Source: Undibacterium umbellatum (lineage in GTDB: Bacteria; Pseudomonadota; Gammaproteobacteria; Burkholderiales; Burkholderiaceae_D). From it: DNA of 64,000 nucleotides. The position numbers were made by a program, and so were the translations under genes. Below the pieces are notes generated by a model. The model had not been told where the DNA came from. It was given only the letters and a program-made list of their open reading frames with translations, and made no database searches. Of the stretch, positions 36,000 through 52,341 are shown piece after piece. The stretch is from assembly GCF_014284125.1 (NCBI RefSeq), contig NZ_JACOFX010000002.1:744001-808000 (forward strand). The letters run 5' to 3'. The first letter of the stretch is position 1, and each line of letters opens with the position of its first letter.

Positions 36000-38918
36000 A
36001 TGAATCCGCAGTTGAATACAGTTTCTTCCTCTGATTATGCGCAGTACTGCCAGCCCAGATTAAGTGAAATGTTGAACATCGCAGGTCTGGACAAGCATTA
36101 TTTCAAGGGCGAAGGCAGTCGCCTCTGGTATCACGAAGACGATGGCAATGAAAAAGAAGTCATCGACTTCCTCGGTGGCTACGGGTCCACGCTGCTGGGG
36201 CACAATCATCCACAACTGGTGGCACATGCAGTTGCCATGCTACAGGGCGGCATGGTGCATCACGGCCAGTTGGGCATGCGCAAACATGCAGGTGAATTGG
36301 GACGGCGGCTGGCGGAACACATGCAAGCCACCACCGGCAGGCCGCATATGGTCTTGCAGGCCAACTCCGGTGCTGAAGCAGTCGAGCTGGCGCTGAAGTT
36401 GGCTGAATTTGGCAAGCGCGCCCGCATAGACCGCCTCCAAAAACGTATAGACGGCGATTTGTATGAAGCTGCCAGAGCAGCAAGCGAAGGCCTGAATATG
36501 CGGGCTGCTGACTTGAGCACCTTGAACGGCTTATTGGGTGAGGCTGCCAGCACTTTGCCACTTTCTGAGCAATTTGCCTTGCTGGCGGAATTCAATCACA
36601 AGGCCGCATCGGCCCGCCCGGTCTTATTGGGCCTGGAGAGAGCATTCCATGGCAAGACTACAGGGGCTTTGCAACTGACGAACAACAGCAGCTACCGGCA
36701 ACCCTTTGAACGTCTTGGCGCACCTGTTCATTTTCTTGCACCAGGCAAGCTTGATGCGGTGCAGGACGTGATTGCCAGCAGCAGGGTGTATTTGCATACC
36801 GTGCAGGAGAACGATGGCGAGCTGATTCTGCAAAGGCAGGAATTTAGTAATGTATCTGCATTTTTTGTGGAACCCATACAAGGAGAGGGCGGTGTCCATC
36901 CTCTTGATATCGGTTATCTGCGGGGTTTGCGCGCATGTGCCGATGCCCATGATTTCCCGCTGGTGCTGGATGAAATACAAACCGGCATGGGGCGCACAGG
37001 CAGCCTGCTGTATGCAGAGCAAATGGGGATACGCGGCGATATCTGCCTGCTGGGAAAAAGCCTGGGCGGTGCACTGGCAAAAATCAGCGCGATACTGGTG
37101 GATCAAGAGTGGTATGAACCAGAATTTGGCCTCTTGCACAGTTCCACTTTTGCTGAGGATGATTATTCTTCCAGCCTGGCTTGCCGGGTACTGGATGTGA
37201 TTGAGCAAGAAGGCCTGCTCGAGCAATGTGCCAGCAAGGGACGCAAACTGGCAGAAGCGCTGAATGGTTTGCAAAAGGCTTACCCTGAAGTCATACGTGA
37301 AGTGCGTGGAGCAGGTCTCTTGCTAGGGTTGGAGTTCATGCCACGTGAGCATGGCAGCACGACCTTGCGCGATATCTTCATGGAAGGGCGACTCGGCTAT
37401 GTGATAGCCGGGTATCTGTTGAACAAGCATGGCATACGGGTGGCACCTACCTTGTCCAGTCCGGCTACCATCAGGCTGGAACCTGCGGCGCTGATCACGG
37501 ATGAAGAATGCCAGAAACTGATGGCAGCACTGACCCATGTCTGTGAAATCCTGCGCCGGCAAAATGCCTATGAGATGAGTAATTACATCATCGGTAACCG
37601 GCATGTGCCTGCTCTGGATGAGATGGATGATTACCGCGCCATGTTCCCACACGCCACAAGCGCACCAGATGTAGATGCACAAGCAGGTGCAGAAGTAAAT
37701 GTGCAAAAGAAGGTGGCTTTTCTCGGCCACTTATCCATCATTTCCAATTTACGTCACTGGGACCCTTCGCTGGTCAACTTCAGCGATGCAGAAGCATCTG
37801 CCTGGTTGCGCAAACTCAGTCCCATGGTGGGGCCACTGGTGCATAAGTCAGAAGTCATCGAGTCCATCACTGGTGAACGCGTGCTGCTGGAATTCATCAC
37901 GCTTTATTTTGATTCAGAAATGATTGTCGAACAAGTCAAGGCGGGCAAGCAACATGAAATACGGGATTGTGTGCAAAGGGCAGTTGACTATGCCGTCGAA
38001 CGCGGCTGCGAAGCCATAGGTTTTGGTGGCTATAGTTCTGTCGTGACAGGCAACTGCAAGCGTGTCCAGTTGCGCCAGGATGTGGCGCTGACCAGTGGCA
38101 ATTCGCTGACCGTGGCCATGGGCATACAAGCCTTGCTGGATACCGCTGCCGAACAAGGTATTGAACTGGAACAAAGCTGTTTCGCTGCGGTGGGTGCGGC
38201 TGGCAATATCGCCAGCATTTATTCCGAGCTTATGGCCAGCCACGTGCCACGCTTGCTGCTGATAGGTACGACAGCTTCTGTCAAGCGCATGCAGCAGCTC
38301 GCAAAAAATATTTACGATGAAGCGTTTGAAGACTTGCTGGTGAAACTGGGTACTGGAGAAAAGTTAAACGGTGTGCCACAAGCCCTGGCAGCGTTTGTCT
38401 GCGTCAAAAAACTGTTGGCCATGCCTGCTGCTGCGCGTCCTGGCGATATTGGTGCTTATCTGTATCAGGCTTTGCAGGAAGAAACGACCCATGCCCCTAT
38501 ACGTATCAGTGAAAACCTGGACGATCTGACAGAAGCCAACCTGATACTCAGCGCCAGCACCACACCTGCTGCCCTGATTTATCCGCAGCACATAGCGGAG
38601 GGGCCGGTAGTTATTTGTGATATTGCCGTGCCGCTGGATGTGGATGCCTCGGTGCGTGAGCAATGCAGCAATGTCGTGGTGATACAGGGCGGCATGGTCA
38701 GGCTGCCGCTGGATTCTGCCTACACCATACCCGGCATACCACTGGAACCGGGTCTGGCTTTTGCCTGCAATGCAGAAACCATCATCATGGGTTTTGCCAA
38801 TCTGAAATCCCACTATAGCTATGGCAAGATCACCAAGGACCAGGTGCAAGAGATATCCCGGCTCGCCAAATTGCATGGATTGACTTTGGCGCGCCCGCGC
38901 CTGGAAGCGAGTTACTGA
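36000..38918 (+). CDS. Class III aminotransferase fused to acyl-ACP-reductase-like domain (TamH-like)
   Basis: The 972-residue protein has two parts. Residues 1-520 are a PLP aminotransferase of the acetylornithine/ornithine group: FLGGYGSTLLGHNHP, QANSGAEAVELALK, VLDEIQTGMGRTG and LLGKSLGG with Lys 353 as the PLP lysine. Residues 570-970 resemble the cyanobacterial long-chain acyl-ACP reductase: FLGHLSIISNL, EAIGFGGYSSVVTGNC, TSGNSLTVAMG, the nucleotide loop VGAAGNIAS and a late VVICDIAVP. In that enzyme the acyl-accepting Cys sits in a QPCVLIDGG segment; here the matching place is Val, with a Cys three residues later. TamH of tambjamine synthesis reduces an acyl thioester and aminates the aldehyde with such a pair. 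Start of the operon; the next gene overlaps by one base. Confidence 0.8.
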   Translation: MNPQLNTVSSSDYAQYCQPRLSEMLNIAGLDKHYFKGEGSRLWYHEDDGNEKEVIDFLGGYGSTLLGHNHPQLVAHAVAMLQGGMVHHGQLGMRKHAGELGRRLAEHMQATTGRPHMVLQANSGAEAVELALKLAEFGKRARIDRLQKRIDGDLYEAARAASEGLNMRAADLSTLNGLLGEAASTLPLSEQFALLAEFNHKAASARPVLLGLERAFHGKTTGALQLTNNSSYRQPFERLGAPVHFLAPGKLDAVQDVIASSRVYLHTVQENDGELILQRQEFSNVSAFFVEPIQGEGGVHPLDIGYLRGLRACADAHDFPLVLDEIQTGMGRTGSLLYAEQMGIRGDICLLGKSLGGALAKISAILVDQEWYEPEFGLLHSSTFAEDDYSSSLACRVLDVIEQEGLLEQCASKGRKLAEALNGLQKAYPEVIREVRGAGLLLGLEFMPREHGSTTLRDIFMEGRLGYVIAGYLLNKHGIRVAPTLSSPATIRLEPAALITDEECQKLMAALTHVCEILRRQNAYEMSNYIIGNRHVPALDEMDDYRAMFPHATSAPDVDAQAGAEVNVQKKVAFLGHLSIISNLRHWDPSLVNFSDAEASAWLRKLSPMVGPLVHKSEVIESITGERVLLEFITLYFDSEMIVEQVKAGKQHEIRDCVQRAVDYAVERGCEAIGFGGYSSVVTGNCKRVQLRQDVALTSGNSLTVAMGIQALLDTAAEQGIELEQSCFAAVGAAGNIASIYSELMASHVPRLLLIGTTASVKRMQQLAKNIYDEAFEDLLVKLGTGEKLNGVPQALAAFVCVKKLLAMPAAARPGDIGAYLYQALQEETTHAPIRISENLDDLTEANLILSASTTPAALIYPQHIAEGPVVICDIAVPLDVDASVREQCSNVVVIQGGMVRLPLDSAYTIPGIPLEPGLAFACNAETIIMGFANLKSHYSYGKITKDQVQEISRLAKLHGLTLARPRLEASY

Positions 38919-41554
38919 TGTCTCAAATGAAAAACCTCTATACCTTCTCTGAACTGCAGGAGCAGGAAGATGCGCTGGCCATCGTTGGCAGCAAGGCAGC
39001 TTCGCTGCTGGCTTTGTTGAAAATAGGTGTGCAAGTACCAGATGGCCTGGTACTGAGCACTCAGGCTTTTCGGGATTTCATTCTACATAACCAGCTCTCA
39101 GCAATGCAGGAATCAGTGCTGGAACAGTTGCGCACACCGGATGCGGCTGGTGTCAATGATGCCGTCACTACTTTCCGGCAATGCCTGCTGACAGGCAGCA
39201 TGCCGCCTGATATCAGCCTTGCCTTGCGCCAGTTGAGTGAGACTCAGCAAGACGCGGCCTGGGCTGTGCGCAGCAGTTGCACGCAAGAAGATCTGGCAGG
39301 TGCTTCTTTTGCCGGTATCTATGAAACAGTATTGAATGTGCGCGGTGAACTGGCCTTGCAGGATGCCATCAGGCAGTGCTGGGCTTCGCTGTTTGGCGAC
39401 AGTGTGGTGCGCTACTGCGCGCATAACCGCATTGCACTTGAACAGGGGAGCATGGCCGTCATACTCCAGCGCATGGTGATAGCCGATGCCAGCGGCGTGG
39501 CATTCTCTGTCAATCCGCAAAGCGGGCATGATACCGAGATGGTGATTGAAGCCTGCTTTGGTCTGGGCGAGGCCCTGGTGGCCGGGCAGATGACGCCTGA
39601 CCAGTACCGCTATGACTGGTATCGCGAGCAATTGACAGGCAGGGATATCCATCACAAGGCCCTGCGCATCCTTGCGCAGGCGGATGGCAGCAATGAAACC
39701 GAGATGCTGGATGATCAGCAAGCTTCGCGTCCTGTCCTCGATGAAGCACAGGTATTGTCACTGGCACAGGAATGCTTGCGCATACAAAAATCCTATGGCT
39801 TTCCGGTAGACATAGAATGGACCATGCAGGACGGCCAGTTTTACTTCGTGCAAGCCAGGCCGATTACCGCCATTCACTATGCTGGCGTTAATATGGAGTG
39901 GAGTAATGCCGACTTCAAGGATGGCGGTGTCTCTTCTTCCGTATGTTCGACCTATATGTGGTCGCTCTACGACTATATCTGGGAAGCGATTTGTCCAAAC
40001 TACACCAGCAGTATACGGATCCATCCTGAATTCAAGGTAGATGCCTGGGGGCGCATGTTCTTTGCCCGCCCTTACTGGAACCTGAGCGCCATCAAGGCCG
40101 GGGTGAAAACCCTGCCTGGTTTCGTCGAGCGTGAGTTCGATGAAAGCGTGGGCGTCAAGGTCAACTATGAAGGTAATGGCCATGTAACGCCCATGACGGC
40201 AAAGATACTGGCGCGTGGCGTGAATGTGCTGATCCGGCTGAAATGGATCATCTGGCGCAGCAAGTCACGCCTCGCTGGCTTCAAGCAGGAACAAATGGCC
40301 AGGCTGGAAGCCTTGCCAGAGGTACTGGCAAATTTGTCGGATAAAGACTTGCCTGCTTTCTATACCCGCTTTGTCAACGAAGAGTATTACCGCAGCGAGT
40401 ACACGTATTTCCATCACATTTTCAGTACCAATAATGTGATGACCCTGTTCCGTGATGATTTCAAGAAATTGAAATCCAGCTACACGGTACTGGATTTTAT
40501 TTCTGGCCTGGCTGGCTTGTCCCACCTGCACCTGAATATAGATTTATGGGATTGCGCGCAAGACTTGCGCAAGAATGAGATTGCAGCAGCCTACTGGACG
40601 GATACACCCATGGCGCAACTCATCGCTGACTGGAAGCAGGGTTCACCATTCATGGGTATGGACAAGGTGGCCGCTGTGGTGGAACGCCACAAGTATCGCT
40701 CCACCCGCGAACTTGATATCACCGTAGAGCGCTTCGGTGAAAACCCGCAATTCATTTTCGAGAACCTCAAGCAATGCCTGGCGCTGGGGGCGGGTAGCAA
40801 CCCACATGAAGGTGTGCATGAACAGGCAGAAAAGCATGCAGAAAAAATGCGGCAATTCGCTGCCAGCCTGCCTTTCCACAAACGTGCTGGCATGCTGAAG
40901 AAGATAGAAGAATTGCGCTACTACCTGTGGTGGCGTGAAGAATTACGTGACCTGTCAACGGCTTATTATTACTGGGTAAGGCAACTTACATTGCGAGTGG
41001 GCAAGCACTTGCAGAGTGCAGGCATACTCGACCAGGTCGAGGATATTTTCCATCTCAGTAAAGATGAAGTCGTTGCCGTACTGGATGGCAGTCTGGATGC
41101 GACCAGTGCCAGCCAGAGTTGGCGCAAGAACCGTGATTATTACCAGTCTTTCCGTCACTTCACACCGCCCGACGAGATAGGGGCAGGTTTCTTGCAAACG
41201 GCAGAATTGTCGGATGCCAGCGTAGCAGCCACCAGTTTCAAAGGGATACCTTGTAGCCAGGGCATAGTCGAAGGCAGGGTCAAGGTAATAGCCAACATCC
41301 AGGACGCAGAAAGACTGGAGAAGGGCGATATTCTTATCACCCGTTTTACCGATCCCGGCTGGACCGCAAAATTCCCCTTGCTGGCGGCAGTGGCCACGGA
41401 GACTGGCGGATTGCTGTCCCACGCTGCAGTGATTTCACGTGAATATGGCATACCAGCCGTGCTGGCTGTCAAAAACCTGACAGGCTTGCTGGTGGATGGC
41501 CAATTGGTGCGCATAGATGGCGGGCGTGGCCTGGTTGAGGTCATCCATGAATGA
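38918..41554 (+). CDS. PEP-synthase-like phosphotransferase of rifampin phosphotransferase/PigC architecture (copy 1)
   Basis: The 878-residue protein begins with an ATP-binding PPDK-N domain (residues about 10-325; WAVRSSCTQEDLAGASFAG near 110 and VDIEWTMQDGQFYFVQARP near 295). A long substrate-type middle region follows, then the swivelling phosphohistidine domain at the very end (GGLLSHAAVISREYGIPAV, His 835). The PEP barrel of true PEP synthase is absent. This order is that of rifampin phosphotransferase and of PigC/TamQ, which join a pyrrole aldehyde to a pyrrole or amine in prodigiosin and tambjamine synthesis. It likely phosphorylates or condenses a small or lipidic molecule using ATP. 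It overlaps the fusion gene by one base and is homologous to the copy at 43630. Confidence 0.8.
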   Translation: MSQMKNLYTFSELQEQEDALAIVGSKAASLLALLKIGVQVPDGLVLSTQAFRDFILHNQLSAMQESVLEQLRTPDAAGVNDAVTTFRQCLLTGSMPPDISLALRQLSETQQDAAWAVRSSCTQEDLAGASFAGIYETVLNVRGELALQDAIRQCWASLFGDSVVRYCAHNRIALEQGSMAVILQRMVIADASGVAFSVNPQSGHDTEMVIEACFGLGEALVAGQMTPDQYRYDWYREQLTGRDIHHKALRILAQADGSNETEMLDDQQASRPVLDEAQVLSLAQECLRIQKSYGFPVDIEWTMQDGQFYFVQARPITAIHYAGVNMEWSNADFKDGGVSSSVCSTYMWSLYDYIWEAICPNYTSSIRIHPEFKVDAWGRMFFARPYWNLSAIKAGVKTLPGFVEREFDESVGVKVNYEGNGHVTPMTAKILARGVNVLIRLKWIIWRSKSRLAGFKQEQMARLEALPEVLANLSDKDLPAFYTRFVNEEYYRSEYTYFHHIFSTNNVMTLFRDDFKKLKSSYTVLDFISGLAGLSHLHLNIDLWDCAQDLRKNEIAAAYWTDTPMAQLIADWKQGSPFMGMDKVAAVVERHKYRSTRELDITVERFGENPQFIFENLKQCLALGAGSNPHEGVHEQAEKHAEKMRQFAASLPFHKRAGMLKKIEELRYYLWWREELRDLSTAYYYWVRQLTLRVGKHLQSAGILDQVEDIFHLSKDEVVAVLDGSLDATSASQSWRKNRDYYQSFRHFTPPDEIGAGFLQTAELSDASVAATSFKGIPCSQGIVEGRVKVIANIQDAERLEKGDILITRFTDPGWTAKFPLLAAVATETGGLLSHAAVISREYGIPAVLAVKNLTGLLVDGQLVRIDGGRGLVEVIHE

Positions 41555-42110
41555 GGTGGCATTGTGGACGCAGGTGATTGCACCTGTGCTGCTGGGTGGT
41601 GTCAGCAATATGGTGTTTGTCAAATCAAAATGGCTCGATAGCTGGAAACATCCCATGGATGCGGGCCGCCTTGCCAGAGATGGCCGCCGCCTGTTTGGCG
41701 CCAACAAAACCTGGAAGGGTTTTTGGGGCATGGTGATAGGCACTGCCTGCTGGTCCATCCTGATTTTCTTGCTCCTCAATTTGGCGGGAGCTATCAGCCT
41801 TGAAGGCTTGTTCAGAGCCGCACTGATAGGTGCCCTGCTGGGCCTGGCCTATGTGCTGGCAGAGCTGCCTAACAGCTATGTCAAGCGTCGACTGGACATC
41901 GCACCCGGCCAGAATAGCCGCGGCTGGAAGGGCAGGTTATTCATCGTCATTGACCAGATTGATTCTGTCCTTGGCTGTTTATTGCTGGCGATGCTGTTGA
42001 TGCCCTTGCAATGGATAGATGCCGTCAAGATCGTCATTATCTGCGGTGGTTTGCATCTGATGGTGAACTGGCTGCTGTTCCAGTTGAAATTGAAAAATCA
42101 AAAATTCTGA
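41547..42110 (+). CDS. CDP-archaeol-synthase-like (CarS/DUF46) membrane protein
   Basis: The ATG at 41547 is chosen because GAGG lies six bases before it and it overlaps the previous gene by eight bases; an ATG at 41517 in the same frame is less likely. The 187-residue protein has five or so helices and the CarS-family text: GGVSNMVFVKSK, FGANKTWKGFWGMVIG (the family's G-x-x-K-T-x-x-G core) and AELPNSYVKRRLDIAPG with a late IDQIDSVLG. CarS activates the archaeal ether lipid phosphate with CTP to give a CDP-lipid. In this operon it probably makes a CDP-activated lipid for the next enzyme. The lipid is unknown. Confidence 0.8.
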   Translation: MNEVALWTQVIAPVLLGGVSNMVFVKSKWLDSWKHPMDAGRLARDGRRLFGANKTWKGFWGMVIGTACWSILIFLLLNLAGAISLEGLFRAALIGALLGLAYVLAELPNSYVKRRLDIAPGQNSRGWKGRLFIVIDQIDSVLGCLLLAMLLMPLQWIDAVKIVIICGGLHLMVNWLLFQLKLKNQKF

Positions 42111-42117
42111 ATGCACC

Positions 42118-42708
42118 ATGCTGATACTCGCTTATCTTAATCTTCCCAATCTCATTACGCTGGCAGGCATGCTGTGCGGCCTGTCTAGCATGATACTGTC
42201 ATTGCATGCTTATCCTGGGTTTGCGCTACTGGCGCTGGGGTGTGCAGGCATTTGCGATTTGCTGGATGGCCATGTGGCACGCCGCATGTCAGCCCATGGC
42301 AAGCGTAGTGATGCACAAAGCCAGTTTGGCCAGACGCTTGACAGCCTGGTTGATGTCATCAATTTTGGCATGGCACCCATGGTTTTCATCTATGCCTTAC
42401 AGCCATCACCATCTGTCAGCTTTTATTTGTGTGCAGGATTTTATGTGGCCTGCGCCGTATTGCGGCTTGCTTATTTTACTGTGCATGGTTTGCTGGAAGA
42501 CAGCCGCGGCAAGTATTACAGTGGCTTGCCCGTGACATATGCTGCCTTGCTTTTGCCTGTGACCATGCTGCCGGGTTTGCTGTCTTGGCCTCTGTCGTGG
42601 TTATTGTGGCTGTTGCATGTGTGGCCGCTGCTGATTGGCAGCCTGTTCATTTCACGTCTGCGCTTTCGCAAACCGGGTAGTGCCAGAACTGTGAGCGCCG
42701 GTGCATGA
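42118..42708 (+). CDS. CDP-alcohol phosphatidyltransferase (phosphatidylserine-synthase-like)
   Basis: The 196-residue membrane protein has the CDP-alcohol transferase motif: DGHVARR near residue 44, an insertion, then FGQTLDSLVD near 72 (the D-G-x2-A-R...G-x3-D-x3-D pattern with all Asp present). It starts LPNLITLAGMLCGLSSM, like PssA of the bacterial type II group. With CTP-activated lipid from the preceding gene, it would add serine or a similar alcohol with release of CMP. The next gene, a decarboxylase, overlaps by four bases (ATGA), and fits serine as substrate. This would be an extra copy if the usual pssA is elsewhere. Confidence 0.85.
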   Translation: MLILAYLNLPNLITLAGMLCGLSSMILSLHAYPGFALLALGCAGICDLLDGHVARRMSAHGKRSDAQSQFGQTLDSLVDVINFGMAPMVFIYALQPSPSVSFYLCAGFYVACAVLRLAYFTVHGLLEDSRGKYYSGLPVTYAALLLPVTMLPGLLSWPLSWLLWLLHVWPLLIGSLFISRLRFRKPGSARTVSAGA

Positions 42709-43640
42709 GTGCTGTTTCTGAAATCACGCTGTATGACAGGAAGCAGGCACGCCTGGTCAGCGAGCAAGTGTTTGAAAAAAGCTTCATGCAGTTTTTTTAC
42801 GGTCACCCTCTTGGCCTGGCGCTGGCGGATATCTTCATCAAGAGAGCCTGGTTTTCAAGACTGTATGGCTGGTTGAAGTCGCGCAAGTCTTCTGCCAGTC
42901 AAATCCAGGCATTTGTCGAGCAGTACGACATCAATGTTGCCGAGGTCGAACTGCCCTTGCATGCCTATCCCTGTTTCAGCGCTTTTTTCACGCGTAAGCT
43001 GAAAGCGGGTTCCCGTCCTGTACCCGATGATCAGCGTATCCTGTTTTCTCCAGCTGATGCCCGTCTGTCGGTGTGGAAGATACAAGCCGACCAAGTCTTG
43101 CCAGTCAAGGGGCGGCATTTCAGCCTGGTGCAACTGCTGCGCGATGAGGCACTGGCAGTTGGATATCGCGATGGCGATTGCCTGGTATTCAGGCTGGCCC
43201 CGGCTGATTATCACCGCTACATCCATATCGACCATGGCAGGCAGGGGCCGGTCAGGCGCATCAATGGTTACCTGCATTCCGTCAGCCCGCTGGCCTTGCA
43301 AAACATGCTGGCAGTGTTCACTGAAAACCAGCGCGAATTTTGCAATATACAAACCCGCAACTTTGGCGAGGTCATACAAGTTGATGTGGGTGCCCTGGTC
43401 GTTGGCCGCATCAACCAGCACAAGGCTGGCGGTGGCCTGGTCGAACGCGGCGAAGAAAAAGGCTATTTCGATTTTGGTGGCTCTACCATCATTTTACTTT
43501 TCAAGGCAGGGGTAATCAGCATCGATGCCGATATCCGGCAGCACAGCGCCCAGGGTATAGAAACCCTGGTCAAGCAAGGGGAAGGCATCGCTTACTCTTT
43601 GCTCCCGCCATCCAGTATCCAGGAAATACATGCAAACTGA
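42705..43640 (+). CDS. Phosphatidylserine-decarboxylase-like protein
   Basis: The 311-residue protein shows the PSD layout: an ADIFIKRAWFSRLYGW opening, FFTRKLKAGSRPV, PADAR near residue 118 (Asp of the maturation triad), PADYHRYIHIDHG near 168 with the His residues, and the self-cleavage motif GGST at 258-261 (LGST or GGST in the family), giving a pyruvoyl group on Ser 260. PSD turns phosphatidylserine into phosphatidylethanolamine. Its place next to the CDP-alcohol transferase suggests a dedicated ethanolamine-type headgroup. It overlaps the transferase by four bases and the second PigC-like gene by eleven. Confidence 0.88.
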   Translation: MSAVSEITLYDRKQARLVSEQVFEKSFMQFFYGHPLGLALADIFIKRAWFSRLYGWLKSRKSSASQIQAFVEQYDINVAEVELPLHAYPCFSAFFTRKLKAGSRPVPDDQRILFSPADARLSVWKIQADQVLPVKGRHFSLVQLLRDEALAVGYRDGDCLVFRLAPADYHRYIHIDHGRQGPVRRINGYLHSVSPLALQNMLAVFTENQREFCNIQTRNFGEVIQVDVGALVVGRINQHKAGGGLVERGEEKGYFDFGGSTIILLFKAGVISIDADIRQHSAQGIETLVKQGEGIAYSLLPPSSIQEIHAN

Positions 43641-46350
43641 AATTATCTCATCGTCTTCGACGCAGACGGATGCCAGTGTCACTCAATTGGGTGGCAAGGG
43701 TAAAAATTTATTGACTTTGAGCCGCACGGGTTTCCAGGTTCCTTATTTCATTGTATTGCCAGTTGCCTTCTTTGAAGAATTGATGGGTACTGATTTGCCC
43801 GTGCTTGACAGGCTTTGCCTCACCGCGTCCAATAGTGTTGGAGCAGAACGTGACGCCGCCATGGCAGCAGCACGCCAACTGATATTGGACAAGAAACTCG
43901 ATACCATCACCGAGCAAGAAATCTTGCGGTTGCTGGTGGGGCAGGGTGAGTATTTTGCTGTGCGCTCATCAGCAGTTGATGAAGATGCTAGCACCCATTC
44001 TTTTGCCGGTCAGCTAGACAGTTTCTTGTTCGTCCCTGCTGATGAAATTATCTTCAGCAAGATATTGGCATGTTATGCCTCGGCCTATAATGACCGCAGC
44101 TTTGCCTATCGATCTGAGCATGCCTTGACGCGTGATTGCATAAGGCCTGCCGTGGTCGTGCAGACCATGGTGTTTGCCGACGTATCCGGTCTGGTGTTTA
44201 CCGGCAACCCCATGAATTGCAACCCAGATGAAATGGTCATCAGCGCCAGCTTTGGTGCTGGTGAAGGCGTGGTTTCTGGCGAGATGGATTGCGATACCTG
44301 GTATATCGATGAGTCTGGAATAGTAGCAAGGAAGGTCATCGTCGAAAAAGCAGCAGGCTTGTTCTTTGATGAAGAGCAAGGCCATGGCCTGAAACGTAAA
44401 AGCGTGGATGCCACAACTGCACTCAGTGAATGCCTGACAGAAGCACAAGTACAGCAACTGGCGCAGGTCGCTCACAACATAGAACTGGCTTACGGTGGCA
44501 TACCCCAAGACATAGAGTGGGGATATATAAAAGATCAGTTGTACATACTGCAGGCCAGGCCAGTTTCCAATCTCTCGCATATCTGCAAGTTATCGCCTAG
44601 AACCATACTGGACAATTCCAATATTGTAGAAAGTTTTTCTGGCGTAACTTCACCACTGACGTTTTCTTTTGCCAGCAGGGTATATGAGAAAGTCTATGAA
44701 CAATTCTATGGCATGTTTGGCGTGCCTGCATCAGAAATACAAAGCCTGAAGCCGGTTTTTCGCAATATGCTCGCCTATTATCAAGGGCATGTTTACTACA
44801 ACTTGAATAGCTGGTACCGCAGCCTGTCATTGCTGCCATTTTTTGATACCAATAAAGAGAATTTCGATGCTTCCATCGGTGTGCAGGCGAGGTCAAGTAC
44901 GACGGGGCTTGGTCATTCCGTTCAGCGCGGTCGCCTGGTTTCTGGCTGGCGTGCCCTGACTGCGGGTGTGCGCATGACTTATTTCTATCTGCGTCGTCAC
45001 AGCATATGCCGCCGCTTTGCCCGTGATTTTGATGTATTCATGCAACCCTATATGCATCTGGATATGTCAGGTTTGAACAATGTCGAATTACTGGCCACCT
45101 ATGACAGGGTGGAACAGCGTCTCCTGAACGACTGGCGCGCGCCCATCATCAATGATTTTTTTGCCGAGACCTTCCATGGCTTGTTACGCCTCTTCCTGAA
45201 ACGCTACGTCTGCAAGGATGAGCAAAAAGTGTCGTTACTGCACAATGACCTGCTGTGCGGTCAGGGTGGTATGGCCAGCGTTGCTCCCACCAATATGCTA
45301 ATGGACATCGCAGCCTGGATCAGGCAGGTGCCGGATCTGACTTTTGCCATGCGCAACTATGGCGTGCGTGAATTGCAGCAAATGATAGAGGCAGCTCATG
45401 GGCCAGACTGGCAAGCGCTGAAGCAGCGCATGGATGCCTATCGCCATGAATTTGGATTTCGCTGCATCAATGAATTGAAGCTGGAAGAAATCAGTATCAA
45501 GGATGACCCTGCCTTTATCATACAGGCGCTTAAAAATTACCTCATGCCCGATGATGCCATTCGCCAAGATGCCGATGGTGAACACACCCAGGTTGCAAAA
45601 ACTGCTGAGCAAAAGGTAATGCAAGGCTGTGGCAATAATATTTTTTTACGCTTGCTAGCTTCGTGGCTGATAAAAAATGCCCGCCTTTGCGTGAAAGAAA
45701 GGGAAGATCTGCGCTTCTACAGGACCAAGGTGTTTGGTTTTGTCCGTTACCTGACAAGGGCGATGGGTGCCAACTTTGTCAGGAATGGCCAGTTGCTGAA
45801 GGTGGAGGATATCTATCTGCTGAGCATAGACGAGGTATTTGGCCTGATAGAACAGCGCGCTGTCAGTCAGGATGTGGCAAGCGGGATTATTCCCTTAAGA
45901 CAGCGTGAGCAAGCCGTATTTCACTTGCTGGATGAAGTGCCACCCCGCTTGCATTTCTACGGTGAACTGCGGCCAGAACGCATGGTGGTAGTCAGTGCCG
46001 ATGACAGCGTCTCCGCAGGCTTGATTGATGATGTCGCGGGGCGTTACCAGGGCATACCTTGCAGCTCTGGCCTGGTACAAGGCCGGGTCAAGGTGGTTCA
46101 CGATACCAGCGATGTGCAGTTGAATGGAGAAATCCTGGTGACACGCCGCACTGATCCGGGGTGGGTGCCATTCTTCCCCTGCATATCGGGTTTGATTGTC
46201 GAGCGCGGCAGTGTGCTTTCACATTCAGCCGTGGTGGCACGTGAAATGGGCATCCCAGCCGTGGTGGGTTTGCGTGGCATCAGTGCCTTGCTGAAAGATG
46301 GCGACGAGGTGCAACTGGATGGGGCTGCTGGCCTGGTGTGCCGCAGGTGA
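43630..46350 (+). CDS. PEP-synthase-like phosphotransferase of rifampin phosphotransferase/PigC architecture (copy 2)
   Basis: The 906-residue protein has the same domain order as the copy at 38918: an ATP-binding domain (YFAVRSSAVDEDASTHSFAG near residue 112, IPQDIEWGYIKDQLYILQARP near 300), a long middle region and a terminal phosphohistidine domain (RGSVLSHSAVVAREMGIPAVVG, His 865). No PEP-type TIM barrel follows. The middle regions of the two copies have diverged strongly, so they probably act on different substrates or successive intermediates. A rifamycin target is unlikely given the operon. It overlaps the decarboxylase gene by eleven bases and the UbiA-like gene by four. Confidence 0.8.
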   Translation: MQTEIISSSSTQTDASVTQLGGKGKNLLTLSRTGFQVPYFIVLPVAFFEELMGTDLPVLDRLCLTASNSVGAERDAAMAAARQLILDKKLDTITEQEILRLLVGQGEYFAVRSSAVDEDASTHSFAGQLDSFLFVPADEIIFSKILACYASAYNDRSFAYRSEHALTRDCIRPAVVVQTMVFADVSGLVFTGNPMNCNPDEMVISASFGAGEGVVSGEMDCDTWYIDESGIVARKVIVEKAAGLFFDEEQGHGLKRKSVDATTALSECLTEAQVQQLAQVAHNIELAYGGIPQDIEWGYIKDQLYILQARPVSNLSHICKLSPRTILDNSNIVESFSGVTSPLTFSFASRVYEKVYEQFYGMFGVPASEIQSLKPVFRNMLAYYQGHVYYNLNSWYRSLSLLPFFDTNKENFDASIGVQARSSTTGLGHSVQRGRLVSGWRALTAGVRMTYFYLRRHSICRRFARDFDVFMQPYMHLDMSGLNNVELLATYDRVEQRLLNDWRAPIINDFFAETFHGLLRLFLKRYVCKDEQKVSLLHNDLLCGQGGMASVAPTNMLMDIAAWIRQVPDLTFAMRNYGVRELQQMIEAAHGPDWQALKQRMDAYRHEFGFRCINELKLEEISIKDDPAFIIQALKNYLMPDDAIRQDADGEHTQVAKTAEQKVMQGCGNNIFLRLLASWLIKNARLCVKEREDLRFYRTKVFGFVRYLTRAMGANFVRNGQLLKVEDIYLLSIDEVFGLIEQRAVSQDVASGIIPLRQREQAVFHLLDEVPPRLHFYGELRPERMVVVSADDSVSAGLIDDVAGRYQGIPCSSGLVQGRVKVVHDTSDVQLNGEILVTRRTDPGWVPFFPCISGLIVERGSVLSHSAVVAREMGIPAVVGLRGISALLKDGDEVQLDGAAGLVCRR

Positions 46351-47186
46351 AAACTGCATTGCGCTGGCTGTCCTGGGGCCGGCAGGCATTTTCATGGCAG
46401 GACTGGTTGTTGTTTTCTAGTGTTTTTCTGGCAACAATCGCATTGTCTGCGCAATCACTTACTACCTGGCTGGCCATCGCGAGCTGGAGTGTGGCGCTGA
46501 GTTTTTTTTTGCTGTTGAAACTGCTCGACGAGCTACTGGATTTTGACGTGGACCAGCGGGCCGGGCGGGATTCATGCCTGCTGCGCGGGGAGGTCAGTCA
46601 GTATGAATTATGGCTACTGGTATTATTGATCTTGGCAGGGCAATTATACTATTTGCTTTCCTTGCGGCGCAGTCAGGCACTGGTTGCATGGTCGGTCTTG
46701 ACGGTCAGCGCTGTCCTGCTGGCACATCCCCGGCTGGCTGGCAGGCCGGTACTATATTCCTTTTTGCATTATTTGTTACTGCCAGGTTTTGCTGCCTGGC
46801 AATTCTCTCTCAACACCGCCTGGGTTGACTTCCAGGCTCAGCATGCTTTGCTCATGCTGATGTTGTATGCCGGTGCCTTGCAATATGAGCTGAGTCGCAA
46901 ACTTGATCTGCGTAGCGGTTATGCGGGTGTCTTGTCGCTGCTCCAGGCTTGCCTGGGCATAGGGTTCATGAACTTGCTGGCCTGCATGAGTTGTGCTATT
47001 TTGATAATGATTTCTGGTAGCAAGTTGCTGTCAACGGAAATAATAATGTGTGTCTTTTTTGCCACTATCTATGCACTGGTCTGCTTGCTCATCAAGCCTG
47101 TGCCATCCACAAGAATTCTGCTGAGAAATATCAGCGGATTCTCTCTCCTGTGTCTCAATCTGGTTATTTTTGCATCCTTGTCTTGA
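46347..47186 (+). CDS. UbiA-like prenyltransferase-family membrane protein
   Basis: The GTG at 46347 forms a GTGA overlap with the previous stop; GTG 46338 is an alternative start, and no ATG is near. The roughly 279-residue protein has eight or nine hydrophobic helices. Early on it has KLLDELLDFDVDQRAGRD, which matches the first Asp-rich UbiA motif (N/D-D-x2-D-x3-D followed by R). The second Asp-rich motif is weaker (YELSRKLDLRSGY). UbiA enzymes attach isoprenoid chains to aromatic rings or to glycerol-phosphate in archaeal lipids. With a CarS-like gene nearby, a lipid acceptor is conceivable. It closes the first operon. Confidence 0.65.
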   Translation: MKTALRWLSWGRQAFSWQDWLLFSSVFLATIALSAQSLTTWLAIASWSVALSFFLLLKLLDELLDFDVDQRAGRDSCLLRGEVSQYELWLLVLLILAGQLYYLLSLRRSQALVAWSVLTVSAVLLAHPRLAGRPVLYSFLHYLLLPGFAAWQFSLNTAWVDFQAQHALLMLMLYAGALQYELSRKLDLRSGYAGVLSLLQACLGIGFMNLLACMSCAILIMISGSKLLSTEIIMCVFFATIYALVCLLIKPVPSTRILLRNISGFSLLCLNLVIFASLS

Positions 47187-47354
47187 AGTTTTTTGGGCAC
47201 TTGCGATCAAGTTCTGTGCCAGAAACTTAGATGAAAAATTCTATCGATTTTGATGGACGTCAATGTTGGACTTTTATTAATGTGGTTAAAGCGATATCTC
47301 AAAATGGCAATATAAAAATTAACTGATTAATAAAAGTGTTGGAGACAGGAAACG

Positions 47355-48251
47355 ATGAGCATTACACAGACCATGTACACCGACAGGATAGCCAGGCTGG
47401 TTCAGCTATCCCGTGAGCGGCACGTATTCAGCTTCACCCGTTTTGACTGGGTTGATGACATCAGCGAAGCCGACTGGTGGGTAAGCCCAGAATTATTGAC
47501 GACTTATGGCACGCCTTATTATGAGCAGGCGACTGAAGCGCAACGCAAGTTGCTCAGCAAATGGGAGTGCATCAATCTCTTTAGCCTGAATGTGACGGGT
47601 GAGCAAGAGTTGATCGCAGGCGTGGCAGAACTCTTACACACCCCCATGCTGAAAGAAGCGAATGACTACCTGCATCATTTCATTGACGAGGAAAACCAGC
47701 ACATGTGGTATTTCGCGAAATTCTGTGAAAACTATGCAGGCAAGATTTACGGCAATAAAAAAATACAGCTCACTGAATTGAATCTGGATCCACGTCTTTC
47801 CGTGCTGGTACGTTTTGCCCAGATATTCATCTTTGAAGAAGTCGGTCATTACTACAATCTGAAGATCGCACTGGATGACAGGGTCCACCCCTTCATACGT
47901 GAAATCAATGAATCGCACCGCAATGACGAGTCGCGCCACATCACTTTTGGCCGTATCTTGCTGGCCAGGCTGGCCGATGGCATTGCTGAGGACTACGCGC
48001 CTGAAGTATTGCAAAAAGTTTCCAATCACTTACGCAAGTATGTGCAAGTCACGATCGAGTCTTTATACAACCCAACCATGTATCGCGATGCCGGTTTTGC
48101 CAGTGGCATTGCAGTGCGCAGCGCATTGCTGAGCCATCCAGTGCGGCAAGAATTTCATGCCCGTGAATTGCTCAAGAAAGTCCTGGCTTTGCTGGGAGAT
48201 ACCAATTTAATCGAGAAGGAGACAAGTTTTGAACCAGATTATCAATCTTGA
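47355..48251 (+). CDS. AurF-family diiron N-oxygenase
   Basis: The 298-residue protein matches the p-aminobenzoate N-oxygenase (AurF) family. It is a helical protein with three metal-binding clusters: EENQHMWYF near residue 111, EEVGHYYNL near 162 and ESHRNDESRHITFG near 188, giving the Glu and His set of a diiron centre. Such enzymes oxidise an amine to hydroxylamine, nitroso or nitro; HamC and MgoC do so in diazeniumdiolate pathways. A good GGAG/AGGAAACG site precedes the ATG. A 168-base gap to the UbiA-like gene may hold a separate promoter. It overlaps the carrier protein gene by 23 bases. Confidence 0.88.
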   Translation: MSITQTMYTDRIARLVQLSRERHVFSFTRFDWVDDISEADWWVSPELLTTYGTPYYEQATEAQRKLLSKWECINLFSLNVTGEQELIAGVAELLHTPMLKEANDYLHHFIDEENQHMWYFAKFCENYAGKIYGNKKIQLTELNLDPRLSVLVRFAQIFIFEEVGHYYNLKIALDDRVHPFIREINESHRNDESRHITFGRILLARLADGIAEDYAPEVLQKVSNHLRKYVQVTIESLYNPTMYRDAGFASGIAVRSALLSHPVRQEFHARELLKKVLALLGDTNLIEKETSFEPDYQS

Positions 48252-48474
48252 CAAGATCAATGAAGTCAGACAGTGGCTGTTGTCGAAGAAAAAGTATCTA
48301 TCCGATATTCCATTCGACCTTGATTTGATAGAAAACGATGTAGTCGATTCCCTCAGCTTTGTGGAATATGTACTCGTCATAGAAGAAATCAGTGGCAAGG
48401 AAGTCGTCGTCGACGACACCGTGCTCGACAAAGTCAGAACGCTGGACAGGGTACAACTGCATTACATGGAATAA
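48229..48474 (+). CDS. Free acyl/peptidyl carrier protein
   Basis: The 81-residue protein has the carrier motif V-D-S-L with Ser 41 as the phosphopantetheine site (NDVVDSLSFVEYVLVIEEI). The helix pattern and acidic surface fit ACP/PCP domains. It starts at TTG 48229, supported by GGAG seven bases before it, and is translationally coupled to the AurF gene. In this set it most likely carries the substrate of the free adenylation domain at 50704 and presents it to the AurF oxygenase and to the reductase at 48524. Confidence 0.88.
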   Translation: MNQIINLDKINEVRQWLLSKKKYLSDIPFDLDLIENDVVDSLSFVEYVLVIEEISGKEVVVDDTVLDKVRTLDRVQLHYME

Positions 48475-48523: not shown

Positions 48524-50590
48524 ATGGAACACCAATTAACTGATTATCGCTACGGTGACTTGCTGGAACTGACGAACCGCCACCGCAATACGACAAAAAA
48601 TATTATCCTGACCGGCGCTACTGGTTTCCTCGGTAGTAATTTCCTGTTCTGGCGTTTGCGCCAGAGTGGCAAGATCTATGTCCTGGTCAGGGGCGAATCC
48701 CAGGAACACGCGAGACAGCGTGTGTATGATGCACTTGCAGTCTGTGCCTCGGCCTACAACCAGCCCATTCCCAAGGCCGACATAGACAGTAAGCTGGAAT
48801 ACATACTGGGCGACATGACAGAGACTATGTGTGCAATCAGCAAGGCTGACCTGGAAAAACTCGCGGCTGGCAACATCTCCGAGTTCTGGCATTGCGCTGC
48901 CAGTCTGAAATTTGAAGACCGCCACAAAGAAGAAATTTATCATCACAATATCAATGGCACCCAGAATGTGATGGACCTAGCGCGCCGCGTCAATTGCCAG
49001 CATTATTTGCATATCTCTACTGCCTATACCTCCGGCCGTATGGCGGGAGAAATACCGGAAAGCCTGCATCCTGTCGATATCGCCTATAACAATTTTTACG
49101 AAAGCAGTAAAAATGAAGGTGAGCACGAAGTCGCCAGATTCTGTGATGCCAATGGGCTGGATTACCGCATCCTGCGTCCCGCCATCATCATGGGGCCGCT
49201 GGCTTCGCGCCGCAGTGGCGGTACACGTTTTGGCATCTATGGCTTGACGCAGGAAATGTACCGCCTGCGTGAAACGCTGAGCAAGTTGCAGACACCATTA
49301 CGCCTGATCGGTGACCTGGCGGCGGCGGGTAATCTGGTGCCGGTGGATCAATGCGTGTTCGATATGATCTATCTCAGCAATATCGGCTTTGGCGATCAAA
49401 AGGTGTATCACCTGACCAATTCCAGTGACTTGAACGTCAAGACCATGCTGGAAAAAATCGATGTGGCATTGGGCATGAAGAGCATCAACTTCGTCCCTGA
49501 ACGTGATACGCCGGCAACGGCGATAGAAGAATTGTTTGACAAGCGCACGGTGTTTTATGGCGGCTACTATCGCACCATCAAGAATTTTGCCCGCAGCCTG
49601 CCCAAACATGCAGGCTTGAGCTGGGCCGATTATGGTACTTATCTGACTGCCTTCATCAAGGAACTGGATGAACAGCAAAGTGGTACCACCTTTAACCGCG
49701 TGCAGGTGACGGCACCAGATGGCATAGAGCTGTGCGTGCTGACCCTGGGGGATAACAGCAAGCCACCACTGGTGTTGGCGAATGCCTATGGCATGCCGTC
49801 TGACTTCATGTTCCCGCTGGCCAAACGCCTGTCTGACCAGTTCCAGGTCATTACCTGGGAGAGCCGCTGGGTGCCTGCAATCACGCATGAATTTGACCTG
49901 GAAAAATGCCATTCCCTGACCCATGCCAGGGATATGATTTCGATACTTGACCATTTTGGCATTGCCAAAAGCGCGGTCGCTGGCTGGAGTAGTGGTGCCC
50001 AGGTGTGCCTGCGTACCATGGCAGAATTTCCTGATCGTATTTCATCGGCAGTGCTGCTCAATGGCGGCGTTTCATTGCCTGCATCGAATGAAATCAAGAT
50101 CACGGAATTTGAAAAAAATATCCGTACGCTTTTCCCGAAAATCGCAGCCAATTATCGCTTTGCGCAAAAGTACTGTGACCTGATTTATGGCGCACATGCG
50201 ACTTCGGACGATGGTGAAGACAGGAAAATGATTTCCACCATTTTGACCAGTACCGACCCCTTCCTGTTGTATATGACCAGTGTCCCTTTCCGTACGCCGG
50301 AATCCCTGTTCAGGTATGCCAACATGATGAACGGCTTGTTCAATGAGCGTGCCGATGCATGGACTGCTGATGTGCCGCATCCTGTGCTGGTACATGTAGG
50401 CGGCAATGATCTGGTGACACATGCTGATGTAGGCCGCTTCCTGGTGGCGGGGCTGGAAAATGGCGTGTTGTCCTTCGATGAAAATGGCGATCACTTCTCT
50501 CATTTCTATGATGAAGACCTGGCAACGATGATCAAGCAATTTGTTACTCAGCATCAGGATCAGACCCAGGATGCGCTGAGCATGACCTGA
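48524..50590 (+). CDS. Thioester-reductase/SDR domain fused to an alpha/beta hydrolase
   Basis: The ATG at 48524 has AAGGA upstream; the frame is open further but overlaps the carrier gene. Residues 1-390 are an extended SDR of the thioester-reductase/fatty-acyl-reductase type: LTGATGFLGSNF at 29-40 for NAD(P)H, STAYTSG near 167, and YESSK near 193 with the catalytic Tyr and Lys. Residues 405-688 are an alpha/beta hydrolase: GWSSGAQ (Ser nucleophile) near 488 and GDHFSHF with His near 655. The SDR part would release a carrier-bound acyl group as an aldehyde or alcohol. The hydrolase half could edit or cleave the carrier thioester. The fusion is unusual. Confidence 0.82.
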   Translation: MEHQLTDYRYGDLLELTNRHRNTTKNIILTGATGFLGSNFLFWRLRQSGKIYVLVRGESQEHARQRVYDALAVCASAYNQPIPKADIDSKLEYILGDMTETMCAISKADLEKLAAGNISEFWHCAASLKFEDRHKEEIYHHNINGTQNVMDLARRVNCQHYLHISTAYTSGRMAGEIPESLHPVDIAYNNFYESSKNEGEHEVARFCDANGLDYRILRPAIIMGPLASRRSGGTRFGIYGLTQEMYRLRETLSKLQTPLRLIGDLAAAGNLVPVDQCVFDMIYLSNIGFGDQKVYHLTNSSDLNVKTMLEKIDVALGMKSINFVPERDTPATAIEELFDKRTVFYGGYYRTIKNFARSLPKHAGLSWADYGTYLTAFIKELDEQQSGTTFNRVQVTAPDGIELCVLTLGDNSKPPLVLANAYGMPSDFMFPLAKRLSDQFQVITWESRWVPAITHEFDLEKCHSLTHARDMISILDHFGIAKSAVAGWSSGAQVCLRTMAEFPDRISSAVLLNGGVSLPASNEIKITEFEKNIRTLFPKIAANYRFAQKYCDLIYGAHATSDDGEDRKMISTILTSTDPFLLYMTSVPFRTPESLFRYANMMNGLFNERADAWTADVPHPVLVHVGGNDLVTHADVGRFLVAGLENGVLSFDENGDHFSHFYDEDLATMIKQFVTQHQDQTQDALSMT

Positions 50591-50640: not shown

Positions 50641-50703
50641 CTGTTCAATTGACTTATCGTTTTTCGATCATGACCGCTGCGGCGGTCAGGGAGAGGTATT
50701 GCC

Positions 50704-52341
50704 ATGAAAAAAACAGCAAATTTATTGATTTCAGGCTTTCTCAATGCCGCCAGAAATTACCCCAATAGCAATGCTTTGTGGGTGGACGAACAAGTCTATA
50801 CCTATGCCGAACTGTTGCTGCGGGTAGCCAGAATCTCGCGTACCCTGGACAGGGAAATCAAGCATGCACATCAACAACGTTGTGCAGTGCTGGTTGACCG
50901 CAGCATTACTGCCTATGCTTCGGTGTTGGGCAGTTTGCTGGCGGGGATGAGTTACGTGCCCTTGAATGCGAAGTTCCCGGCACAACGCAATTTACGTATG
51001 CTGGAACTGTCATCATCCACGTCCATCGTGGTTGATGAACGTTCCTTGGATGCCGCCAAAGAGATATTGCAGGCCTATCCCGATCCATTGATGGTGCTGA
51101 TGCCCGAGACCGATAGCCTGCCCACCTGGGCCGCCAGCGCCAGCCAACATACTTACATCCTGAAGCGCCAGATGGCAGAAGCCGATACAGCCAACCTTGC
51201 CCTGCCACAGAAAGTCAATCCTGTCGCCTATGTGCTCTTCACTTCGGGCAGCACGGGTTTGCCCAAGGGTGTGGCCGTCACCAATGACAATGCCAGTACC
51301 TATGTCGCCAATATCATTGAGCGTTATCAGCCAGGCCCAGGTGACCGCTTTACCCAGTTCTTTGATTTTACTTTTGACTTGTCAGTGCACGACATCTTTG
51401 TCAGCCTGAGTTCCGGAGCGTGTCTGTACAGTGTGCCTGGGCGTGTCATGATGATGCCATTGAAGTTTGTCCAGCAACATGAGCTGACACACTGGTTTTC
51501 CGTGCCTTCACTGGCGGCTTGCCTGAAACGCTATAACGCGCTGCGCCCTGACATTTTGCCCAGCCTCAAATACAGCCTGTTTTGCGGCGAAGCCTTGCCC
51601 ACCAGCCTGGCGCAAGACTGGCAACCGGCTGCACCCAATTCCATCATAGAGAACTTGTATGGACCGACCGAAGCGACGATTGCCTTTACCGTTTATCCTT
51701 ATCAGGCAGATGACCCGCGCATTGCGGCCTTGCCTGTAGTGCCCATAGGCTGGCCTTTGCCGGGGCAGGAAGTCGTGATACTGGACGAACATTTTTCACC
51801 CGTAGCCGAAGGTGAGACTGGCGAGTTGTACCTGGGTGGATCTCAACTGGCCCAGGGCTATTGGGAAAACACCGAACTGACACGCCAGCGTTTCCTGAGC
51901 ATGCACTTCGAGGGCAAACAGGCGAGTCGCTGGTATCGTACCGGTGACCTGGCCAGCTTTGATGCACAAGCAGGTTTATTGTACGGAGGTCGTATCGATA
52001 ATCAGGTAAAAATACGTGGCTATCGTGTCGAGGTACAAGAAGTGGAGGCGGTAATCCGGCGACTGGGTGGATCTGACCTGGTAGCCGTCGTGCCCTGGCC
52101 TTTGGCCGCAGATGGCAGTGTGCAAGGCTTGCTTGCGTACGGCTGTGGCTTTACCGTATCATCAATGGACATCCTCAAGGCATGCACTCTGCAATTGCCT
52201 GCCTATATGGTTCCACAGGATTTGATAGAGCTGCGCAAGATGCCATTCAATTCAAATGGCAAGATTGATTATCCGGCGCTGCAAAAAATGGCAGGTGATG
52301 GTGACAAATTGAAAAGAGAAGCAGTGGTGCAGGGACCATAA
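50704..52341 (+). CDS. Free NRPS-type adenylation domain
   Basis: The 545-residue protein has all adenylation core motifs: YVLFTSGSTGLPKGVAV (A3) near 177, FDLSVHDIF (A4) near 225 with the Asp that binds the amino group of alpha-amino acids, NLYGPTEATIAF (A5) near 317, YRTGDLASF (A7) near 412, and NSNGKIDY (A10) near 520. DltA-type enzymes are similar, so D-alanine is possible. It should load an amino acid on the carrier at 48229. A GGGAGAGG site precedes the ATG. It is the last gene of the cluster, directly followed by a terminator. Confidence 0.88.
   Translation: MKKTANLLISGFLNAARNYPNSNALWVDEQVYTYAELLLRVARISRTLDREIKHAHQQRCAVLVDRSITAYASVLGSLLAGMSYVPLNAKFPAQRNLRMLELSSSTSIVVDERSLDAAKEILQAYPDPLMVLMPETDSLPTWAASASQHTYILKRQMAEADTANLALPQKVNPVAYVLFTSGSTGLPKGVAVTNDNASTYVANIIERYQPGPGDRFTQFFDFTFDLSVHDIFVSLSSGACLYSVPGRVMMMPLKFVQQHELTHWFSVPSLAACLKRYNALRPDILPSLKYSLFCGEALPTSLAQDWQPAAPNSIIENLYGPTEATIAFTVYPYQADDPRIAALPVVPIGWPLPGQEVVILDEHFSPVAEGETGELYLGGSQLAQGYWENTELTRQRFLSMHFEGKQASRWYRTGDLASFDAQAGLLYGGRIDNQVKIRGYRVEVQEVEAVIRRLGGSDLVAVVPWPLAADGSVQGLLAYGCGFTVSSMDILKACTLQLPAYMVPQDLIELRKMPFNSNGKIDYPALQKMAGDGDKLKREAVVQGP

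Follow-up and report, generated by a model that had tools for sequence, protein, structure and literature searches.

A candidate aminolipid gene module beside an N-oxygenation cassette in Undibacterium umbellatum

Locus and closest described systems

A row of eleven genes (G1 to G11, positions 36000-52341, plus strand) in a 64,000-nucleotide stretch of the Undibacterium umbellatum genome (called the window for simplicity) was compared with the closest described biosynthetic systems. Tambjamine-type pathways also include a PigC-like ligase of the phosphoenolpyruvate (PEP) synthase type, and TamQ has a PigC-like condensing role in the tambjamine pathway. PtTamH from the tambjamine YP1 (tam) cluster of Pseudoalteromonas tunicata joins an N-terminal pyridoxal phosphate (PLP) transaminase to a C-terminal AAR-like thioester reductase with a catalytic cysteine (PMC9594044); the G1 product resembles it in the transaminase and, as a candidate shared feature, in the reductase-like domain. 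The row differs from the tam cluster in that no bipyrrole gene was identified among its eleven genes and in that CarS-, PssA- and phosphatidylserine decarboxylase (PSD)-type genes, a UbiA-fold protein and a second PEP-synthase-like phosphotransferase (PPS) are present in addition. With the archaeal polar ether-lipid pathway the row shares, in one cluster, four enzyme types (resembling digeranylgeranylglyceryl phosphate (DGGGP) synthase, CarS, archaetidylserine synthase and its decarboxylase), and archaeal ether-lipid families are the best matches of the G7 fold and the G3 sequence; it differs in missing the equivalog cut-offs, in having a TamH-type enzyme and two PPS as extra parts, and in that no geranylgeranylglyceryl phosphate (GGGP) synthase was found among the eleven genes, to which the search for it was confined. 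The ham (fragin/valdiazen) and pvf clusters resemble the scheme proposed for G8-G11 in that an AurF-type N-oxygenase acts on a carrier-bound amino acid before reductive release; as described for the ham cluster in PMC11659414, HamD loads valine, HamC oxidises it and a reductase domain releases it, on one nonribosomal-peptide-synthetase-like protein. Here, in contrast, the adenylation enzyme, carrier and reductase are separate genes and the reductase carries a hydrolase, and no counterparts of HamA, HamB or HamE were seen among the eleven genes when ham and pvf were compared by description.

All eleven open reading frames (ORFs) lie where an earlier note on this DNA had placed them. Its description as mostly overlapping fits 6 of the 10 junctions (1 to 38 bp); the remaining four are gaps of 7, 168, 49 and 113 bp, the largest separating G7 from G8. 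Pfam matches bore out the family assignments overall: class III aminotransferase, PPDK_N with PEP-utilizers (G2 and G6), CarS-like, CDP-OH_P_transf and PS decarboxylase, and in the second part of the row AurF, NAD_binding_4 with abhydrolase, and AMP-binding. The row consists of two biosynthetic modules, A (G1-G7) and B (G8-G11), which supports the earlier view of two arms together with its lipid-headgroup logic. The claim that no characterised cluster has this content is upheld as far as the searched literature reaches: no description of module A was recognised by title or start of the abstract, most subscription journals lying outside the search. Two aspects of the earlier reading are not supported, namely that the content is unique and that it forms one system: some lipid-arm genes turn up in other phyla where the N-oxygenation arm is absent, and the latter occurs without the lipid arm in locus L149 and, at the position of the row itself, in three Undibacterium genomes.

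The explanation that we favour, with a probability of roughly 45%, is that the product of module A is an amino(phospho)lipid whose head is of the ethanolamine type and that of module B a small amino aldehyde or amino alcohol oxygenated on its nitrogen, with shared control being probable. We infer each reaction, substrate and product, and whether the two products combine chemically, from the observed parts, active-site residues, conservation, recurrence and a shared sequence element. Somewhat more tentatively, module A may represent an undescribed class of bacterial membrane aminolipid pathway in at least six phyla, with a TamH-type enzyme and a pair of PPS from two clades (PPS-A and PPS-B) as its signature; most of the fuller clusters would end with an interchangeable amino-acid headgroup step (CarS and PssA or a BtaA-family protein) and a PSD-like decarboxylation, and in Oxalobacteraceae the module would have its control element in common with a cassette for a diffusible N-oxygenated signal or toxin. 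If true, scattered bacteria of several phyla make aminolipids for which we found no description in the literature searched, and the route combines an enzyme of fatty-amine formation with two phosphotransferases that work through phospho-histidine. Producers could then be traced by a sequence tag consisting of the paired PPS-A and PPS-B motifs and the proximity of TamH and PPS genes, and Undibacterium strains with and without module A at the same locus would be natural comparison strains.

The phosphotransferase pair and the other genes of module A

The two PPS genes, G2 (38918-41554) and G6 (43630-46350), each encode a PPDK_N and a PEP-utilizers domain with the catalytic histidine. They resemble the superfamily of PEP synthase, rifampin phosphotransferase and PigC in these ATP-grasp and swivelling-histidine domains, whose motifs are intact, and differ from it as two co-travelling clades below every curated cut-off shown (NCBIfam: G2 at best 436 vs 866, RIF_Ptrans_rph 426 vs 999; G6 at best 731 vs 883). 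The earlier label "PigC/rifampin-phosphotransferase-like" is therefore right only at the level of the superfamily. A tree built from 23 PPS rows, each at least 600 aa long, split 100/100 into PPS-A (13 rows, including G2) and PPS-B (10 rows, including G6). Meeting long branches were flagged in this tree, so that its inner branching orders are unsure. Every cluster with two PPS rows of this length (9/9; three from Oxalobacteraceae, three from Nocardia, L022, L024 and L029) holds one of each clade. RSS-x3-ED is conserved in 23/23 rows and the catalytic histidine in all 20 rows reaching that region, where the motif is TGG-x-LSHAA-like in PPS-A vs GS-x-(L/V)SH(S/T)A in PPS-B. This one-of-each pairing is the strongest evidence for treating module A as a single conserved pathway that contains two distinct phosphotransfer reactions, in which G2 and G6 would phosphorylate lipid hydroxyl (or phosphate) groups via phospho-histidine. 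The PPS target, which could be an alcohol, a lipid phosphate or, as for PigC-like enzymes, a carbonyl, is among the least certain parts of the proposal, together with the group transferred by G7 and a meeting of the products.

A rival reading is a single hybrid product, in which a PPS acting like PigC or TamQ joins the G1 fatty amine to the N-oxygenated aldehyde from G8-G11 and the headgroup enzymes decorate the adduct. In its favour, the fatty amine of tambjamine biosynthesis is a product of TamH (PMC9594044), the modules stand together in three genomes, and a TamH-type fusion lies near AurF, carrier and aminoacyl-carrier-ligase-like genes in Saccharopolyspora (L053). PPS-A and PPS-B recur, however, in loci without the AurF cassette, this cassette persists without module A, and the cut-offs for PigC (335 for G2 and 298 for G6 vs 1300) and RedH are missed by far, which makes a hybrid product quite improbable.

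G1 (36000-38918) encodes a TamH-type fusion of an N-terminal class III transaminase (Aminotran_3, 229.5 bits), with the PLP lysine K353 invariant in 24 rows, and a C-terminal AAR/thioester-reductase-like domain, in which C923, G732 and G735 are invariant in 24 rows (PtTamH not among them) and the third position of the GxxGxxG motif is alanine, not glycine. By analogy with PtTamH, it would reduce an acyl thioester to an aldehyde and convert this into a fatty amine by transamination. The CarS-like CTP:lipid-phosphate cytidylyltransferase G3 (41517-42110) would activate the lipid phosphate with CTP; it exceeds its Pfam cut-off (66.9 vs 22 bits) and has CDP-archaeol synthase as its sole PDB match (5guf, E 6.6e-6), and it misses the NCBIfam equivalog cut-off for that enzyme (80.3 vs 148). 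CMP would be exchanged for serine by G4 (42118-42708), a CDP-alcohol phosphatidyltransferase of the serine (PssA/archaetidylserine synthase) type (Pfam 65.4 vs 22 bits), both PDB matches of which are serine phosphatidyltransferases. CDP-alcohol phosphatidyltransferases share the signature DxxDGxxAR...GxxxDxxxD, and the DLLDGHVAR...GQTLDSLVD of G4 fits it; a stricter spacing pattern did not match, and the scores stay below the NCBIfam cut-offs for PssA and archaetidylserine synthase (74.6 vs 107 and 92 vs 240). The PSD-like G5 (42705-43640; Pfam 165 vs 22 bits), which contains the GST self-cleavage motif as GGST and falls short of the PRK00723 cut-off (317 vs 371), would decarboxylate the serine head to a phosphoethanolamine head. 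Since the contig that carries G5 also holds the genome's other PSD gene, at a different place, G5 probably serves as an accessory copy.

For G7 (46338-47186), a membrane protein, Pfam gave no match even at E 10; the closest protein to it comes from U. umbellatum (95%). Its structure model shows the UbiA fold, the first Asp-rich motif is present, E184, R187 and K188 are invariant near the position expected for the classical second Asp motif, and its counterparts in L022, L029 and L052 exceed the UbiA Pfam cut-off. G7 is probably a transferase of the UbiA fold, which would add or build a lipid chain. Alternatively, module A could be a bacterial ether-type lipid pathway on the archaeal model: PPS-A and PPS-B would convert a fatty or prenyl alcohol to its phosphate and then diphosphate, the UbiA-fold protein would place the chain on a backbone hydroxyl, and the CarS-, archaetidylserine-synthase- and decarboxylase-type enzymes would complete an ether phosphatidylethanolamine. 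Archaeal-type ether lipids have a bacterial precedent in the FCB group (PMC7852524). We regard this pathway as unlikely: the G7 model scores no better for DGGGP synthase than for the Aeropyrum UbiA homologue (tied at Z 19.9), the CarS and archaetidylserine synthase equivalog cut-offs are missed, GGGP synthase is lacking from the row and the transaminase would be left without a role.

Recurrence of module A and its headgroup genes

The aminolipid proposal was compared with a survey of the best 80 of 592 loci, 25 with the full G1-type fusion and 55 with a plain aminotransferase. PPS genes were found in 9/25 fusion loci vs 0/55 aminotransferase-only loci (p 9e-6), PSD in 5/25 vs 0/55 (p 2e-3) and AMP ligases in 11/25 vs 3/55 (p 8e-5), while CarS, CDP-OH-PT and AurF (1/25 each vs 0/55) showed no enrichment; the PPS, PSD, CarS and CDP-OH-PT profiles had window sequences as their only seeds. 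UbiA, GNAT370 and TMK (4/25 each vs 0/55), P450 (5/25 vs 2/55) and DUF3419 (3/25 vs 0/55 by profile, and a fourth, L050, by Pfam) were also more frequent in fusion loci, an enrichment that is partly circular because these profiles were seeded wholly or partly from fusion loci. Three of the nine PPS-bearing fusion loci belong to Nocardia, and there are thus fewer events than the counts suggest.

Parts of module A were found in five other phyla. The clearest clusters, with PPS clades taken from the tree wherever a tree row exists, read UbiA, PSD, DUF3419, PPS-B, TamH, PPS-A-GNAT370 in Methylomirabilis (L022); PPS-A, TamH, UbiA, DUF3419, PPS-B, GNAT370, PSD in Desulfobacterales (L029); DUF3419, PSD, PPS-A, AMP, TamH, PPS-B, GNAT370, UbiA in Planctomycetota (L024); TamH, GNAT370, P450, PPS-B, UbiA, CarS in Bacteriovoracaceae (L052), with a PPS-A-labelled gene further along (L144); and TamH, AMP, PPS-A, CDP-OH-PT, CarS in Planctomycetota (L126). 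AMP and SDR genes in L022, considered as members of module A, were set aside as OleC/OleD-like and still stand in the AMP count. TamH-type genes (E 1e-120 or better) occur in 15/246 genomes from the phylum of L024 and in 1/198 from that of L029 (L029 itself), so that the fusion has a patchy rather than a general distribution.

BtaA, an enzyme that puts a homoserine group on lipids, belongs to the DUF3419 family. The loci with DUF3419 (L022, L024, L029 and L050) and those with CarS/CDP-OH-PT (the window family, L041, L052 and L126) do not overlap (0/8), and PSD is present in 4/4 of the former and 2/4 of the latter. The simplest reading is that DUF3419 and CarS with PssA are alternative ways to attach an amino-acid head, followed by a PSD-like decarboxylation. 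In the other phyla, a BtaA-family protein occurs where CarS and PssA are absent, and a protein with a predicted N-acyltransferase fold comes in addition, which fits a ceramide-like N-acyl aminolipid. For GNAT370, a tandem-GNAT fold is predicted (E 3e-12) by a model of modest confidence (pLDDT 63.5), and no PDB match was obtained by sequence.

Several observations, beside the partly circular enrichment, weigh against the aminolipid proposal. No PPS lies in the stretch covered, in some cases a short one, for 16/25 fusion loci, so TamH-type fusions also serve other pathways. DUF3419 loci have PPS yet no CarS or PssA, and supplying the headgroup phosphate can therefore not be the simple role of PPS. 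The L037 genome and the three of Nocardia each have a single PSD, which does not share a contig with the fusion, and the stretches examined showed neither UbiA nor CarS nor DUF3419; PSD was not seen in the L052 and L126 stretches, and the window cluster yielded no protein of the GNAT370 type. TamH and PPS alone are common to all clusters.

Further loci showed other gene combinations. In L134 and L037, TamH and PPS adjoin thymidylate-kinase-like proteins, which suggests extra phosphorylation steps, and L037 also has a HAD phosphatase. Downstream of a TamH-PPS-A-TMK fusion and PPS-B, Nocardia L141 (3400-7754) contains genes of the alpha-oxoamine synthase family, NTP_transf_5 and a DAGK-family lipid kinase, part types known from sphingolipid-like routes. 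Kangiella (L035) and an unclassified gammaproteobacterium (L036) have a row of AMP ligase, TamH-type fusion, another gene of AMP-ligase type and a short ORF of carrier size, which is probably a fatty-amine cluster of a different kind.

Module B and its link to module A

G8 (47355-48251) encodes an AurF-type diiron N-oxygenase (Pfam 116 vs 29.6 bits) with seven candidate iron ligands, E85, E113xxH116, E161 and H188xxxE192xxH195, which are invariant in 7 rows. ExxH, HxxxExxH and the preceding 27-residue step agree with Dob3 as presented in PMC13061610; the other spacings differ. PDB searches with the single sequence and the 7-row profile returned R2-like chains only and no AurF chain, and the AurF label thus rests on Pfam and the ligands. 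In PMC13061610 Dob3, another AurF relative, oxidises hydrazones, so that the exact N-oxidation proposed for G8 is not fixed by its family. G9 (48229-48474), a small carrier protein, has a DSL motif and a sub-threshold match (PP-binding_2, E 0.031), with nothing from NCBIfam. The thioester reductase with alpha/beta hydrolase G10 (48524-50590; longest ORF from 48392) more likely starts at the ATG at 48524 (688 aa), judged from the lengths of its nine closest relatives (79% identity or more), which measure 687-697 aa. G11 (50704-52341), a free-standing amino-acid adenylation enzyme, is above the TIGR01733 cut-off (350 vs 317 bits). We propose that G11 would load an amino acid onto G9, G8 would oxidise the nitrogen, and G10 would release it reductively, yielding a small amino aldehyde or amino alcohol with an oxygenated nitrogen in the manner of the ham and pvf clusters.

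Of 399 genomes sampled from the order, 4 contain an AurF relative at E 1e-15 or better, that of the window among them. The four-gene order of module B is shared by L149, from a gammaproteobacterium of another family; the 20 kb examined there contain no module A, and L149 provides the only other G10 match (E 1e-100) among 369 genomes sampled from the class. A natural fusion of reductase-hydrolase (50% to G10) and AurF (40% to G8) exists in Myxococcus stipitatus (P0180, 974 aa). Elsewhere, for example in Tistrella, Streptomyces and Saccharopolyspora, the neighbour of AurF and carrier is a gene resembling aminoacyl-tRNA ligases, in some cases accompanied by a nitronate monooxygenase, and on a Nostoc plasmid an adenylation protein takes the place of the ligase-like gene. 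Saccharopolyspora L053 (5142-14151) offers another, different meeting of both kinds of enzymes, with AurF, carrier, aminoacyl-carrier-ligase-like and hydrolase genes next to an AMP ligase and a TamH-type fusion. A reductase-hydrolase relative (30%) on a Mycobacterium avium plasmid (L150, 8893-11010) has genes for a methyltransferase, an ATP-grasp protein and an aminotransferase as neighbours, together with transposases.

The earlier note would have been refuted if the two halves never co-occurred elsewhere; all eleven genes were found in the same order in two further genomes. In genome G034, of the same genus, they are 78-98% identical, with dN/dS values of 0.018 to 0.211 relative to the window. 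In Massilia atriviolacea (G528), identities are 44-73% for module A and 79-85% for module B. The HIT gene after G11 keeps this position there (75%), and the fatty-acid ligase gene to the right of the cluster in the window lies to the left of G1 (86%), i.e. the genomic address is related. G1 matches (E 1e-50 or better) occur in 8/392 genomes sampled from the family: those in the window's genome, G034 (94%) and G528 (71%) are full length, and five are partial at 27-31%. Distant TamH-like genes at this identity are present in the Undibacterium genomes G009 and G023 and in G443 and G758, with no PPS in the stretches examined, and also in G722.

A 28-nt conserved element (CCAGAAA-N2-TAGATG-N4-ATTCTATCG) lies upstream of both modules on the plus strand, at 35762-35789 between an ECF (extracytoplasmic function) sigma gene and G1, 22 bp from the start of the sigma gene, and at 47219-47246 in the 168-bp gap before G8. 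With its 22 specified positions, these are the only window sites at up to 3 mismatches (shuffles 0.00); the pattern had been taken beforehand from the alignment of both sites, a further point against our proposal, and the window count alone therefore proves little. In an independent search of 16 genomes with a shorter pattern (18 specified positions, up to 3 mismatches) 46 sites were found, and all 8 with 0 or 1 mismatch are at this locus: two in the window genome (G000), two in G034 and one each in G528, G026, G031 and G665. The other 38 sites, compared with 36 for a reversed control pattern, are mostly background; two of them are the second copies of G026 and G031, which lie on the sigma side at a distance of about 290 bp to the first copy. 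A further site with 5 mismatches lies 323 bp before G1 in G528. The two modules stand side by side, probably under a shared control element. Because the gap before G8 contains this element, the row need not be a single transcript.

Undibacterium genomes G026, G031 and G665 retain module B (83-94% identity) with no match to G1-G7, between the same flanks as in the window (ECF sigma, YCII and glyoxalase on one side, HIT and fatty-acid ligase on the other). The gaps of G026 and G031 contain about 43 bp similar to the final part of G7, with scores of 41 and 39 against maxima of 29 and 33 among 200 shuffles, and that of G665 has a weak match (29, reached by 1/200 shuffles). This resemblance suggests a remnant and hence a loss of module A, although module A may instead have been inserted beside a similar pre-existing sequence; whichever the direction, module B persists without A in these genomes. 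The modules could also be unrelated neighbours with nothing but a genomic address in common, as each is found without the other and a 168-bp gap separates them. The identical eleven-gene order in Undibacterium and Massilia with the same HIT gene adjoining, the same element upstream of both modules and the possible G7 remnant, which implies a long association, make this rather unlikely.

The "one strong terminator" claimed at the end of the row needs correction: a terminator-like stem-loop with a T run lies directly after G11 (52365-52387, plus strand), and the longest such site (16-bp stem, 52903-52938) follows the next gene, which encodes the HIT protein. A scan for sigma-70-like promoters was uninformative, with fewer sites than in shuffles (9 vs 16.4). 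The neighbouring ECF sigma gene (34417-35739, minus strand) encodes a long C-terminal part (DUF6596) and lies with 31444-33141 (minus strand) near YCII and glyoxalase-like genes, as described for ECF42; the ECF42 promoter sequences quoted in PMC6180224 have no clear likeness to the 28-nt element by eye. Further upstream, the window contains a cyclic-di-GMP-I riboswitch (23739-23825, minus strand, 80.4 bits).

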